Shown piece by piece: positions 51,879 through 57,366 of a stretch of 64,000 nucleotides of DNA. A program made the position numbers and the translations under genes. This DNA comes from Acidobacteriota bacterium (GTDB taxonomy: Bacteria; Acidobacteriota; Holophagae; Thermotomaculales; Thermotomaculaceae): positions 1 through 64,000 of the forward strand of contig JAADGL010000029.1 of NCBI GenBank assembly GCA_013152385.1, given 5' to 3'. A model generated the notes under the pieces. The model was not told the DNA's origin and did no database searches. It saw only the letters and a program-made list of their open reading frames with translations. Numbering within the stretch: position 1 is the stretch's first letter; every line of letters starts with the position of its first letter.

Positions 51879-53960
51879 TTATTTTCCTTCCGGGAGTTTG
51901 ATTTTTACCGAAAATCCGGCTTCTTTCAGTACGGATTCCAGGTGGGGAATCAGTTCGGAACCGGCGATGGTAAGGCGGATTGTGCTGTTCTCAATTTCAA
52001 AACCGCTGACCATAGGCAGGTCGGAAAGAATGGCGCGGATATCCGAATGGCAGCGGGGACAATCGATTTCCGTGATTTGCAGCAGAAGGGTCAGCGGCTG
52101 AGTCCGCTGTTCCGGTAGCCCGGAAGGGATTCTGCGGAGGTAGGTGGTTTTTCCCAGGCTGTCGGCGATGCCGTTTCCGGTTTTCCATTTGTTCCGAAAC
52201 CGTTCCGGATCATAACCGTTTTGTTTCAGCATATCTTCGATTGTGTCCCCTTTGTCATGGCGGAGGATTTGAAAGCGATTGTCTCCGGTAACTTTCACAA
52301 AGAAAGTGTCCGGGGTTCCAAAGAGGTTGTGGGCATTGGCCATGGCATCCTGATAGGCGCCGGTGAGGAAAATTCCGAGATAGTAGGGTTCGTTTTTAAG
52401 CCGGTGAAATTTCAGGGTTTCCCGGGTGGAACTGATGTCTGCGAAACGGGTGATTTTCCCGTCCGAATCACAGGTGATGTCTGCCAGGACAGCAGATTCT
52501 CCCGGTACTTCCCGGAGCCGGTGGATAGGGGCGATGGGGAAAATCTGCCGGATAGCCCAGGCATCCGGAACAGAGCGGAAAATGGAAAAGTTGGTAACAT
52601 ATTTGGACGCAAGGAGGGAATCCAGTGTTTCCAGTTCTTCCGGGCGATGGTCCATTCTGGGAGCGAGTGCAGCCACTTTCCGGACAATGTTCCAGAAAAT
52701 CTGTTCACCCGCCGCCTTCTGTTTCAATGTCAGAACACCGACATTGAACAGGGTGTGGAGCTGTTCTTTCATGTGGATGGCATCGTGGAAGTATTCCACA
52801 AGATTGCGGGTGTTCAACAGTTCATAGGTTTCCATTAAATCCACCAGAAGCTTGTCTTCGCTTTCCATGCTTTTTTTCAGCGGCATGGGCTGGAACAGGG
52901 AATGCTTTTCCACCACATCCACAACCATCATGCTGTGGTAGGCGGTGATGGCCCGCCCGCTTTCGGTAAAAATTTCCGGTTCCGGTACTTCCTGCTGGTC
53001 ACAGACACCTTTCATATGGAAAATAAGGTTGTTTGCGTATTCGGTAACCGTGTAATTGATGCTGAATGCACCGGATGAACGGCTTCCGTCATAATCAATT
53101 CCCAGCCCCCCTCCGAAATCAACGATTTTCACCGGAACACCCATATGAAACAGTTCGGCGTAAATCATGCCGGCTTCTTCTGTCATTGCTTTAATTTTTC
53201 TGGAATGTGTGACCTGGGAGCCGATATGGGCATGGAGCATAATCAGCCGGTTCATGAGTCCGTGTTCCTTTAAAAATGCCACCGCTTCTACAATTTCAGA
53301 GGCGGTGAGCCCGAATTTTGCGAAATCACCACCGGATTCTTCCCATTTTCCGGTTCCCTTTGTGTGGAGCCGGGCCCGGATTCCGAGAAACGGCAGGTGT
53401 TCCGGTTTTGTTTTTTTTATCAGAGAAACAAAAATTTTCAGTTCTGAAAATTTTTCAATAACAAGAAAAACCCGTTTGATTTTCCCTGCCGCAGCAAGAA
53501 TCATTCCCATGTAGCTTTCATCTTTATAACCGTTGCAGACAATAGGGGTATTTCTGTTTGCCACAGACATTATCGCGGCCAGTTCCGCGATGGAACCGGC
53601 TTCCAGTCCGATTCCGCTTGATTCGCCTGCGGAAAGAATGGCTTCCACCACAGGAAAGGACGGGTTGGCTTTGACGGGATAAACCGGGGTGTAGTTTCCG
53701 GAATAATTGAATTCTTCCGTTGCCCGGCTGAAAGATGAGGTCAGTTTTGAAATGGAATAGTCCAGCATCTGAGGGAAATGAAACTTCAGTGGAGTGCATG
53801 CTCCCCGGTCTTTCACCTTCTGCACCAGTGAAAAAAGATCCAGCCGTACGGCTTTTTCTTTGCCGGGTGTGAGCCAGAGATGTCCGTTGTCGCCGCCGTG
53901 GAAAAAACCGGCACCCCAGTCGGAAATCCTGTAATACTGTTTGGCATCTTCCGTAATCAT
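51879..53960 (-). CDS. speA: biosynthetic arginine decarboxylase with C-terminal HMA-like domain
   Basis: 693 residues. The first ~610 match PLP-dependent SpeA, which makes agmatine from arginine: YSGNYTPVYPVKANPSFPVVEAI (PLP lysine), GIGLEAGSIAEL, MLHAHIGSQV, VDFGGGLGIDYDG, ESGRAITAYHS and DAWAIRQIFPIAPIHRLRE. After a short linker, residues about 622-690 fit a heavy-metal-associated fold: LLLQITEIDCPRCHSDIRAIL (C634-x-x-C637), FEIENSTIRLTIAG, and LESVLKEAGFSVKI, in the beta-alpha-beta-beta-alpha-beta order. The start at 53960 (MITEDAKQYYRISDWGAGFF) is preferred over 53999, because the promoter -10 lies between them. First gene of an operon with tatD and tcdA. Confidence 0.93.
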   Translation of the reverse strand: MITEDAKQYYRISDWGAGFFHGGDNGHLWLTPGKEKAVRLDLFSLVQKVKDRGACTPLKFHFPQMLDYSISKLTSSFSRATEEFNYSGNYTPVYPVKANPSFPVVEAILSAGESSGIGLEAGSIAELAAIMSVANRNTPIVCNGYKDESYMGMILAAAGKIKRVFLVIEKFSELKIFVSLIKKTKPEHLPFLGIRARLHTKGTGKWEESGGDFAKFGLTASEIVEAVAFLKEHGLMNRLIMLHAHIGSQVTHSRKIKAMTEEAGMIYAELFHMGVPVKIVDFGGGLGIDYDGSRSSGAFSINYTVTEYANNLIFHMKGVCDQQEVPEPEIFTESGRAITAYHSMMVVDVVEKHSLFQPMPLKKSMESEDKLLVDLMETYELLNTRNLVEYFHDAIHMKEQLHTLFNVGVLTLKQKAAGEQIFWNIVRKVAALAPRMDHRPEELETLDSLLASKYVTNFSIFRSVPDAWAIRQIFPIAPIHRLREVPGESAVLADITCDSDGKITRFADISSTRETLKFHRLKNEPYYLGIFLTGAYQDAMANAHNLFGTPDTFFVKVTGDNRFQILRHDKGDTIEDMLKQNGYDPERFRNKWKTGNGIADSLGKTTYLRRIPSGLPEQRTQPLTLLLQITEIDCPRCHSDIRAILSDLPMVSGFEIENSTIRLTIAGSELIPHLESVLKEAGFSVKIKLPEGK

Positions 53961-53969
53961 AGCTGTCCA

Positions 53970-53999
53970 ACTATAAACCAGTGGGAAAAGCAGGGTCAA
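53970..53999 (-). promoter_or_regulatory. promoter of speA, probably leaderless
   Basis: Minus strand: TTGACC (53999-53994), an 18-base spacer and TATAGT (53975-53970). The -10 box ends nine bases before the ATG at 53960, and no good ribosome site is visible. Confidence 0.5.
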
Positions 54000-54220: not shown

Positions 54221-55147
54221 ATGAAGGAGGCGAAACTATTTCTCATGACGGTGTTGGTATGCGCAGTGCCGCTTGCCTATGCCGGTGCGGGGGGGGATCT
54301 CGTCGGAGATAAGTCCTGTGCAGATTGTCATGGGGAGCTTGTGGCTTCATTTAACAATAGCTTCCACAGCACCTTTTTTAAAAAAGGTGACAAGTTTAAA
54401 TGCGAAGCATGCCACGGCCCCGGACAGGCCCATATGGACAATGAAGATCCGACACTGATTGCAGGCCCGGAAAATAATATGAAGAAGCTGGAACAGAATT
54501 GTCTGTCCTGCCATTCCAATGTATTGCACGGGCTGAAAGAAAAACATGTGATGGAATATGGGATCGGCTGTACCGATTGTCACAAAGTTCACCAGCCGGC
54601 TTATAAAGGATCGTTGAAAGAGTACGAAAGCCGGCTGTGTCTGAAATGCCATCAGGACGTGAAGGCAAAAATGTATCTGCCTTCCCACCATCCGGTGAAG
54701 GAAGGAAGAATGACCTGCATTGACTGCCATAAGTTTGACGGCTCGGAGGATGTGGCATCGGAAAATACCATGCCGGAGCGGGTAAATGAAACCTGCCTGT
54801 CCTGCCATCCTCAGTATCGCGGCCCGTTTGTATTTGAACATGCTCCGGTGGCAGAGAATTGTTTGATTTGTCATGATCCCCACGGCAGTGTGGCAAACAA
54901 TCTTCTGAAAGCAAATGAGCCGTTTTTGTGCCTGCAGTGTCATCAGATGCATTTTCATACCGCTTTGCCGGGTTATGAGGGGGACTTTGTTCCCCGGAAC
55001 CATCCGGACCGCGGCCCGTTTACGTCTACAATGACCGGTGCGAAACGGGGATTTTTAACCAAATGTACGCAGTGCCATACCATGATACACGGGTCCGACC
55101 TGCCGTCTGAGGCGCGGAGCGCTCAGGGCAAAGCATTGACCAGGTAA
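54221..55147 (+). CDS. periplasmic decaheme c-type cytochrome (MtrA/DmsE family)
   Basis: 308 residues with a signal peptide (ending AYA-GA) and ten CxxCH heme sites: CADCH, CEACH, CLSCH, CTDCH, CLKCH, CIDCH, CLSCH, CLICH, CLQCH and CTQCH. Size and heme count match MtrA, PioA and DmsE, which carry electrons across the periplasm into an outer-membrane barrel. GGAGAGGTT precedes the ATG. The matching barrel gene follows after 10 bases. Together they would pass electrons to or from an extracellular acceptor or donor; no outer-surface cytochrome gene (MtrC/OmcA) is in the window. Confidence 0.95.
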   Translation: MKEAKLFLMTVLVCAVPLAYAGAGGDLVGDKSCADCHGELVASFNNSFHSTFFKKGDKFKCEACHGPGQAHMDNEDPTLIAGPENNMKKLEQNCLSCHSNVLHGLKEKHVMEYGIGCTDCHKVHQPAYKGSLKEYESRLCLKCHQDVKAKMYLPSHHPVKEGRMTCIDCHKFDGSEDVASENTMPERVNETCLSCHPQYRGPFVFEHAPVAENCLICHDPHGSVANNLLKANEPFLCLQCHQMHFHTALPGYEGDFVPRNHPDRGPFTSTMTGAKRGFLTKCTQCHTMIHGSDLPSEARSAQGKALTR

Positions 55148-55157
55148 GGAGGAAAAC

Positions 55158-56873
55158 ATGAAGAAATTTGCGATTTTTCTGTTGGCCTGCCTGCCGTTGA
55201 TTGCCTGGCCGACAATGGCGGGAGACCATGTGGATGCGAATAATTATGTGGAAACCGGATTTCACGGCAGTGATATCAGTAAAGATCATAATCAGGTTTC
55301 CGAATATTCTCAGAGTAAAACACGGGTTCAGGGCCTGCTGAAAGTCCGGACGATAGATGCTTCCGGTGACTTGAAATACCGTCTGGATCTGGCATTGTTC
55401 AGCAATGATGATATGAAGATGAAACTGGTGATTCACAAGGGGAGTTGGTTTACCAGCACCACCAGCTACAACAAATTTCTCCACAAACTGGGGCATGACA
55501 CCCTGTCAAACCTCAGCTGGCGGGAGGCGGAAGACCGGGAAGGCACAATTCCGGCCCACAAAGAATTAACCCATGTGGACTACGATCCCACCCAGGATTA
55601 TTACAAGGTTTATGAGGATTTCCGGCAGGTATTTGATATCAGATTGAACACGGCAATGCCTTCGGATATTCAGGTGGGATTTCGGGCGCAGTCCCGTACC
55701 GGTTATCATCAGGTAATGCAGCTTTCCCACTGCGATACCTGCCACGTGCAGAGCAAAGCTGCCCGGGTGGATGAAAATGCCTACGATATCTGGGCAAAAT
55801 TCCATGCGAAAGTAAAAAAGTTTGATGTCAGCTACAAATATACTTATTCCAAATTCAACAACCAGGCTGATGAAACATCCTTTTACATTGATTTGCCGAG
55901 ACACCCTGCAACCGGTGGGGCCATTGACGAGTTCGGGAGCCGGACCCTTTTCGGCGGAGAAACCCTTCCTTCCGAATTTAACAATGACAACAGGAAATCC
56001 ACCCATGAGATTCACGTGGAGGGCGCGGTCAGCAGCCGGGATACTGTTGTGGCAGGTGCCAGTTATTCGGATCTGACCAATGAATTTACGAATCTGGATC
56101 TGACCACGTCTACCGGTTCTTTCCGCTGGTCCCATAAGTTTCGGACAAATTTCGTGGTGGATACTTTTCTGTCCTACTACACTATGGACAATGACGATGT
56201 GTTTGTTGACATTCCGGCGTGGCGGGACGGACGGCCCGGGGGCGGGCAGCCGTTGTCATGGACCCGGTATTCCGCATACAACCGGAATGTCTCTTATGTG
56301 AAACTCCGGGCACGCTACAAAATGGACGGTAATAACCGGTTTACATTCAGTTACCGCTATAAGCAGACAGACCGGGACAATGTGGTTGTGAATCTTGAAG
56401 ATGGTTCCACAGATACCAAGTCCAGCCTTTTTAAAGTCCGCTGGGACGGCCGGTTTGATGAACTGAGGGCAAATGTCGTAGCTTCTTTTGAATCCATCAA
56501 TCATCCCTTTGAAAACGCGCGGGGCATCAATGAAGCGCCTGCCGCCGCTTATACCCCGTTTCCGGACAACAGTGTAATTTATTATTTCCAGCGGCAGGTT
56601 ATCGGTGAAGCAAGCAACATGCCGTCCCAGGACCTGAATGTCCGGGGTAATCTCAGTTATCGTTTTTCGGATAAGGCATCATTTAATATGTATGCCGGTT
56701 TCCGCAGCGGTGAGAATAATGAGCTGAACACGTATACCATGAATATTACCGCAAGAACGGCGGGGACAAGTATGTTTTTTGTGCTGAATGAAAAAACAGT
56801 TTTGACAGTCGGCTACGATTACAGCTTCTCAAAGCAGAATGCTGTGTTTTCGGTGCCGGTCATGGATGGGTGA
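55158..56873 (+). CDS. MtrB/PioB-family outer-membrane porin, ending at an in-frame TGA
   Basis: A 571-residue N-terminal part of a beta-barrel that sheathes the decaheme cytochrome. It has a signal peptide (ending TMA-GD) and long amphipathic strands (RFTFSYRYKQTDRDNVVV..., LNVRGNLSYRFSDKASFNMYAGF). A CDTCH sequence (C192-C195-H196) could bind a heme or form a disulfide. The frame stops at TGA 56871-56873 (codon 572), but the same frame continues with barrel sequence to 57308. The total would be ~716 residues, the usual size of MtrB. AAGGAGGAAAAC precedes the ATG. Confidence 0.9.
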   Translation: MKKFAIFLLACLPLIAWPTMAGDHVDANNYVETGFHGSDISKDHNQVSEYSQSKTRVQGLLKVRTIDASGDLKYRLDLALFSNDDMKMKLVIHKGSWFTSTTSYNKFLHKLGHDTLSNLSWREAEDREGTIPAHKELTHVDYDPTQDYYKVYEDFRQVFDIRLNTAMPSDIQVGFRAQSRTGYHQVMQLSHCDTCHVQSKAARVDENAYDIWAKFHAKVKKFDVSYKYTYSKFNNQADETSFYIDLPRHPATGGAIDEFGSRTLFGGETLPSEFNNDNRKSTHEIHVEGAVSSRDTVVAGASYSDLTNEFTNLDLTTSTGSFRWSHKFRTNFVVDTFLSYYTMDNDDVFVDIPAWRDGRPGGGQPLSWTRYSAYNRNVSYVKLRARYKMDGNNRFTFSYRYKQTDRDNVVVNLEDGSTDTKSSLFKVRWDGRFDELRANVVASFESINHPFENARGINEAPAAAYTPFPDNSVIYYFQRQVIGEASNMPSQDLNVRGNLSYRFSDKASFNMYAGFRSGENNELNTYTMNITARTAGTSMFFVLNEKTVLTVGYDYSFSKQNAVFSVPVMDG

Positions 56874-57308
56874 GCGGGTCAAATCAACCCTGACGGTGTC
56901 GGGGGATGTATGCATTATGGCAGCGCAACCGATTTGACCACCAATTACAGCACGGTGAACAGTTATTTTTTCACCCTGGATTCCAGGCCTTTCCGGAACA
57001 TTGCCGTCTCTTTCAAAACCGCCGTTAACAATTCCAAAATGGGGTTTGACCCCCTGTCCGGCTGGGTAGGCCCTATGGACCGTATCCCAAAACTGGATTT
57101 TGACGGGTTCGCGGAGGTGAATTCATATTCCGACCTGGCTTCGGATTCTTATGAATTCGATCTGAATCTGAATTTCATCATCAACGATAATCTGTCTGTT
57201 CTGGCGGAAGCCAATTTTCAGAATTTTGACGATCATCAGCCCTATGTTTACGGGGACACTACCGGCCGGTGGTTTTACGGGAAACTTTCCCTTCGTTACA
57301 TTTTCTGA
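56874..57308 (+). CDS. C-terminal part of the MtrB/PioB-like porin, same frame after TGA
   Basis: Reading on from the in-frame TGA gives ~144 residues. A loop with Cys at codon 584 (GGCMHYGS) is followed by beta strands (SYFFTLDSRPFRNIAVSFKTAVNN, YEFDLNLNFIINDNLSVLAEANFQ) and the terminal strand WFYGKLSLRYIF, whose final Phe is the normal BAM signal. It could start alone only at ATG 56910, without a ribosome site, and lacks a signal peptide. So it belongs to the upstream gene, separated by nonsense mutation, error or recoding. Confidence 0.8.
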   Translation, partial: AGQINPDGVGGCMHYGSATDLTTNYSTVNSYFFTLDSRPFRNIAVSFKTAVNNSKMGFDPLSGWVGPMDRIPKLDFDGFAEVNSYSDLASDSYEFDLNLNFIINDNLSVLAEANFQNFDDHQPYVYGDTTGRWFYGKLSLRYIF

Positions 57309-57336: not shown

Positions 57337-57366
57337 AACCGCCCGACTTTTGTCGGGCGGTTTTTT
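57337..57366. terminator. bidirectional intrinsic terminator
   Basis: An 11-bp stem (AACCGCCCGAC, 57337-57347, with 57352-57362), TTTT loop and T run. It ends the cytochrome-porin operon and can also end the convergent GntR-ABC operon. Confidence 0.92.

Follow-up and report, generated by a model that had tools for sequence, protein, structure and literature searches.

An MtrB-like outer-membrane porin gene at positions 55158 to 57308 (forward strand) of the window (the whole stretch of 64,000 nucleotides analysed here) carries a TGA at codon 572 (56871 to 56873). The question that this locus raises is whether the triplet breaks the gene or is read as selenocysteine (Sec). The frame described in the earlier note was confirmed: the gene starts with an ATG at 55158, comprises 716 codons and ends with a TGA stop codon at 57306 to 57308, and the read-through product of 716 residues terminates in ...LRYIF, with a C-terminal Phe. 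Directly upstream, on the same strand, lies a gene for a decaheme c-type cytochrome (54221 to 55147; 308 aa, ten CXXCH motifs), and a gap of 10 nt separates its stop codon from the porin start, forming a compact two-gene unit. A likely intrinsic terminator of this unit, at 57339 to 57365 (forward strand), can be read from the sequence as CCGCCCGAC-TTTT-GTCGGGCGG-TTTTT; a consensus scan gave no report of that element. Besides the decaheme gene, no other multiheme gene was found in the window, nor was any found in the flanks of six relatives. An Rfam search of the decaheme-porin operon returned sub-threshold matches only, and tblastn of plasmids gave no match. On the reverse strand, positions 51879 to 53999 encode a biosynthetic arginine decarboxylase; residues 15-607 correspond to SpeA, and they are followed by roughly 100 additional C-terminal residues, which contain a CPRC motif, are HMA-like by eye and have no Pfam match.

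Both products can be assigned by profile to families that are already described. The porin matched NF041027 (GSU2204 family CXXCH-containing (seleno)protein) with 393.1 bits (cut-off 350) over residues 6-571; the match ends directly before the TGA, and both CDTCH (residues 192-196) and the TGA at 572 are present. The decaheme matched NF041028 (GSU2203 family) with 355.9 bits (cut-off 325) and TIGR03508 with 220.8 bits. Searched against Pfam, the porin had no match; with TIGR03509 (MtrB/PioB) it reached 18.2 bits in its C-terminal part only, under the cut-off of 240. A profile search of solved structures with the porin gave nothing, the best E value being 1.6 for a match to the CXXCH only. Among 396 sampled genomes of the phylum Acidobacteriota, 32 contain the GSU2204 family above cut-off. 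Members of this family are already listed as predicted selenoproteins, without redox motif or function, in reviews of 2022 and 2026 (PMC9312934, PMC13188914). The earlier note expected a Sec-containing porin of this kind to be new, which is mistaken, as the family is found in NCBIfam and in both reviews; the Sec reading is already known for the GSU2204 family, and the porin of the window adds one member. In Geobacter given hematite or magnetite, transcripts of GSU2204 and GSU2203 increase by a factor of about 1.5 to 2.7 (PMC4070692). In the literature searched, no biochemistry on a GSU2204-family protein was found.

Conservation of the in-frame TGA

Full-length orthologues of the same family (n=7, from separate assemblies, 48-83% identity) were aligned with the porin, and each of them has a single in-frame TGA, at the corresponding position (7/7). 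Together with the window and 23 more Acidobacteriota loci, TGA is present at this site in 31 loci. Every locus readable through the site has either TGA or, in seven cases, a Cys codon (TGC or TGT); Trp was never found. The site lies within a motif (D)G-U-(A/G)-(G/A), with surroundings such as DGUAGGVTxGQFGS, and in distant paralogues that score under the cut-off of the family it is occupied by other residues, e.g. Lys or Thr. A genome scan with a narrow alignment gave six near relatives only; those that bear names are all Acidobacteria, and are metagenome-assembled genomes. In the porin tree, the seven Cys-type loci form one clade (SH-aLRT 100) nested among Sec loci (87), so that a single Sec-to-Cys change would be the simplest reading.

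Selection on the two parts of the gene was compared by dN/dS, which was 0.10-0.15 over the 144 codons 3' of the TGA and 0.09-0.11 before it. Purifying selection is equally strong on both sides of the TGA. Separately, dS against three congeners was 0.55 in 56874 to 57305, about half of the 1.0-1.1 found in the 145 codons before 56871.

A nonsense mutation or a sequencing or assembly error, which would mean a broken porin or a base that is really TGG and which the earlier note had held to be at least as likely as Sec, fits a lone TGA in an otherwise open frame, and the window alone could not discriminate; but the TGA is repeated in separately assembled, independent genomes at 47-83% identity and purifying selection persists 3' of it, so that an error, a fresh nonsense mutation or a split gene is excluded for practical purposes. 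Another possibility is that translation stops at codon 572 and that the ATG at 56910, where an ORF of 132 aa begins, starts a separate protein. However, the stretch between the TGA and this ATG is conserved in frame, each family member is a single barrel with its last strands encoded 3' of the TGA, and the Cys homologues have an uninterrupted frame of about 724 codons. A separate protein is therefore very improbable.

SECIS hairpin and selenocysteine machinery

If the TGA encodes Sec, a bacterial SECIS (bSECIS) element would be expected 3' of it. Comparative folding points to an apical stem-loop of this kind at 56888 to 56904 (forward strand), in which 56888-56894 pair with 56898-56904 to give a 7-bp stem with a GGU triloop (56895-56897), 21 nt after the UGA and with a folding energy of -10.9 kcal/mol. 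The hairpin that had been noted about 20 bases after the TGA is real, and its stem extends the 6 bp originally seen by one C-G pair. The published constraints on bSECIS elements are a loop of 3-9 nt, a stem of 4-16 bp, a G in the first two loop positions, a distance of 16-37 nt from the UGA and an MFE of at most -7.5 kcal/mol (PMC13188914). The hairpin of the window agrees with every one of them, the distance range that had been claimed for it included.

When the 52-nt stretch of the window was tested alone by dinucleotide shuffling, its folding was not significant (z -0.62), so the case for a SECIS rests on comparison. With a synonymous-codon null, in which the protein is held fixed, the window gave z -3.1 (p 0.016), and 30 Sec loci gave a mean z of -2.47, with p < 0.05 in 20 of the 30. 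Across the eight members of the window's family, 100% of the stem cells are paired, including one compensatory change from C-G to U-A; in 22 more distant loci the figure is 84%, versus 32-52% when the partners are slid by 1-2 bases. The letters themselves differ, the window having CCCUGAC-GGU-GUCGGGG and other loci a stem around GGCCA-GUU-UGGC. The hairpin is under selection beyond the protein sequence. In the two Cys loci that were folded it is absent (z +0.6 and -0.4 with the synonymous-codon null), as is expected once Sec has been lost.

The search of the source genome for sel genes that the earlier note had proposed found selA, selB, selD and selC. Profile matches were obtained for SelA (465 bits), SelB (351.5 bits) and two SelD proteins, scoring 390 and 371 bits; the gene of the latter has an in-frame TGA too, within AAGUAGK. 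The genome also encodes a tRNA-Sec whose anticodon is TCA (UCA). The selD copies are located at G000:C13:23873-24796 and G000:C20:64858-65787; one copy is part of an open frame of 748 codons, which may be a fusion, and the other is itself a selenoprotein. SelA was found in 21 of the 23 genomes with a TGA-type porin, and the remaining two (G005 and G103) have SelB above cut-off. In the genomes with a Cys-type porin, SelA was missing from six of seven, the exception being G427. The association of SelA with porin type gave a Fisher value of 0.0003, which ignores the relatedness of the Cys loci and includes several genomes that are incomplete (63-92%).

These results also bear on whether UGA might be read as another amino acid, such as Trp, or be passed by non-specific readthrough or suppression. 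UGA is known to encode Trp in some bacteria. In this case, however, the porin gene itself ends in TGA, which shows that TGA is not reassigned throughout, homologues have Cys and never Trp at the site, the genome holds the full Sec set, and a SECIS lies 3' of the TGA. We give such a reading hardly any chance. Taken together, the conservation of the TGA, the Cys homologues, the SECIS and the machinery make it almost certain, as far as comparison of sequences can tell, that the porin is a genuine selenoprotein with Sec at codon 572. SelB bound to the hairpin at 56888 to 56904 would deliver Sec-tRNA(UCA) to the UGA codon 572, yielding the 716-residue protein. It is likewise very probable, leaving the role of Sec out of the estimate, that the porin is a GSU2204-family selenoprotein which forms an MtrB-like outer-membrane barrel made with its decaheme. 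The Sec interpretation of the earlier note thus held in its core, while its novelty and the partner that it had seen in Cys584 did not.

Invariant residues, the decaheme partner and the possible role of Sec572

The only CXXCH of the porin is CDTCH at residues 192-196 (55731 to 55745, forward strand), whose C, C and H are invariant in an 18-sequence alignment. In L035 numbering, the invariant residues of the porins are those of this CXXCH (C178, C181 and H182), a His (H104) and the Sec/Cys. Except for the CXXCH cysteines, Sec has no conserved Cys partner; since there is no second conserved free Cys, a thioredoxin-like dithiol mechanism is unlikely. Cys584 is indeed present in the window, and also in L011, but is replaced by Ser or Trp in the other six of the eight family members, and was rejected as a resolving cysteine. 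In seven loci (L025, L031, L035, L039, L040, L045 and L049) there is a Cys at Sec minus 7, and it is always accompanied by a second Cys about 110-120 residues N-terminal to Sec. This co-occurrence suggests a disulfide tying the Sec loop to a neighbouring loop. Four loci of one clade (L022, L027, L034 and L036) carry, within the N-terminal third of the protein, an extra unpaired Cys with NYCPYYQ-like surroundings, for which no partner is apparent.

The AlphaFold model of the porin, made with seven sequences, has a pLDDT of 33 and is not usable for distances. Its DSSP pattern contains many antiparallel strands, with no reliable count to set against the 26 of an MtrB/PioB-type barrel, and the porin has a C-terminal Phe; when the strands are read back from the C-terminal one, residue 572 falls in a long loop (563-593). 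In MtrB, periplasmic turns are tight and extracellular loops are long (PMC7198977). By loop-length parity, the sole guide that a model of this pLDDT leaves, the Sec loop would be on the extracellular side, and the CXXCH loop (about 186-200) would be on the same side if the doubtful strand 473-485 is a loop.

The decaheme partners were compared for the window (54221-55147) and loci L010-L087. Heme motifs 9 and 10 are separated by 42-61 residues in all partners of Sec/Cys porins, versus 20-29 in partners of non-Sec/Cys paralogues. The decaheme of the window has this enlarged spacing, with CLQCHQMHFH, and a CxxCHxxHFH-type motif at heme 9 occurs in all Sec/Cys loci but one (L040, with HFQ). What is new here is that Sec/Cys porins are always paired with a decaheme of enlarged heme 9-10 spacing; the correlation may reflect one evolutionary event. 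The decaheme also has ten invariant or nearly invariant non-proximal (distal-type) His residues. As it keeps these, its own hemes need no Sec ligand, and the idea that Sec is the missing ligand of a decaheme heme was rejected.

Where, then, might Sec act? The C-terminus of MtrA faces outwards (PMC7198977). This orientation, the loop placement, the CXXCH and the change at heme 9-10 together suggest that Sec acts at the conduit's outer mouth. The barrel would form a sheath around the decaheme, as in MtrAB. The long loop on the extracellular side (about 563-593) would bring Sec572 close to the CXXCH loop of the porin and to the remodelled decaheme segment between hemes 9 and 10, and Sec572 may provide an additional site, redox-active or heme/metal-ligating, at the point at which electrons exit the heme wire. 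We propose this role tentatively, at slightly less than an even chance.

Alternatively, Sec may be structural or protective, either in a selenylsulfide with a Cys of the CXXCH or in a metal-binding or anchoring site, with the CXXCH carrying no heme; this differs from the preferred explanation in the role of Sec only. The CXXCH cysteines are the sole other invariant thiols, and the Cys pair near the Sec loop suggests structural disulfides there. However, in exported proteins of cells that make cytochromes, CXXCH is the canonical motif for attaching heme c, and that of the porin fits such attachment, its H being invariant too. Moreover, Sec has been retained over wide divergence, and Sec kept instead of Cys across such divergence usually marks catalysis. 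A structural Sec therefore seems rather unlikely, although it deserves to be kept in mind.

For the preferred site at the outer mouth, a more specific form can be envisaged, in which the porin carries its own heme at the CXXCH, paired with Sec at the extracellular mouth. Sec would be a heme/metal ligand or a catalytic selenol handing electrons of the decaheme to an external acceptor, and the whole would be a conduit of eleven hemes plus selenium that lacks a separate surface cytochrome. Such a heme-Sec pair in the barrel has lower odds than an additional redox or ligand site at the outer mouth, and we regard it as doubtful.

Given how common the GSU2204 family is in Acidobacteriota, automatic annotation that ignores Sec would leave a probable electron-transfer protein of the outer membrane split or truncated. 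A family entry without motif or function becomes testable in two respects, namely whether there is a heme in the porin and whether the wire has Sec at its outer end. For the Sec porins, the Cys clade provides a natural comparison.

Comparison with known systems

The unit of the window resembles the GSU2204 family of Geobacter sulfurreducens and its relatives in having a GSU2203-type decaheme directly upstream and an NF041027 match that runs up to the Sec codon. In contrast, its porin belongs to a divergent Acidobacteriota branch (393 bits, versus up to 584 for other loci), and its hairpin is made of other letters than those of the other loci. With MtrAB, DmsEF and PioAB it shares a DmsE-type decaheme, a large barrel of MtrB-like length and the pattern of short turns and long loops. 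It is unlike them in the presence of Sec, of one CXXCH in the barrel and of the enlarged heme 9-10 segment; in addition, no MtrC-like cytochrome gene lies within the window, and the porin has no Pfam match and falls under the TIGR03509 cut-off. ExtKL of Geobacter (GSU2937-2936) is similar in that an electron-transfer cluster encodes a predicted Sec protein along with an outer-membrane porin (PMC5877670). There, however, Sec is in the cytochrome, whereas in the unit described here it would be in the barrel.
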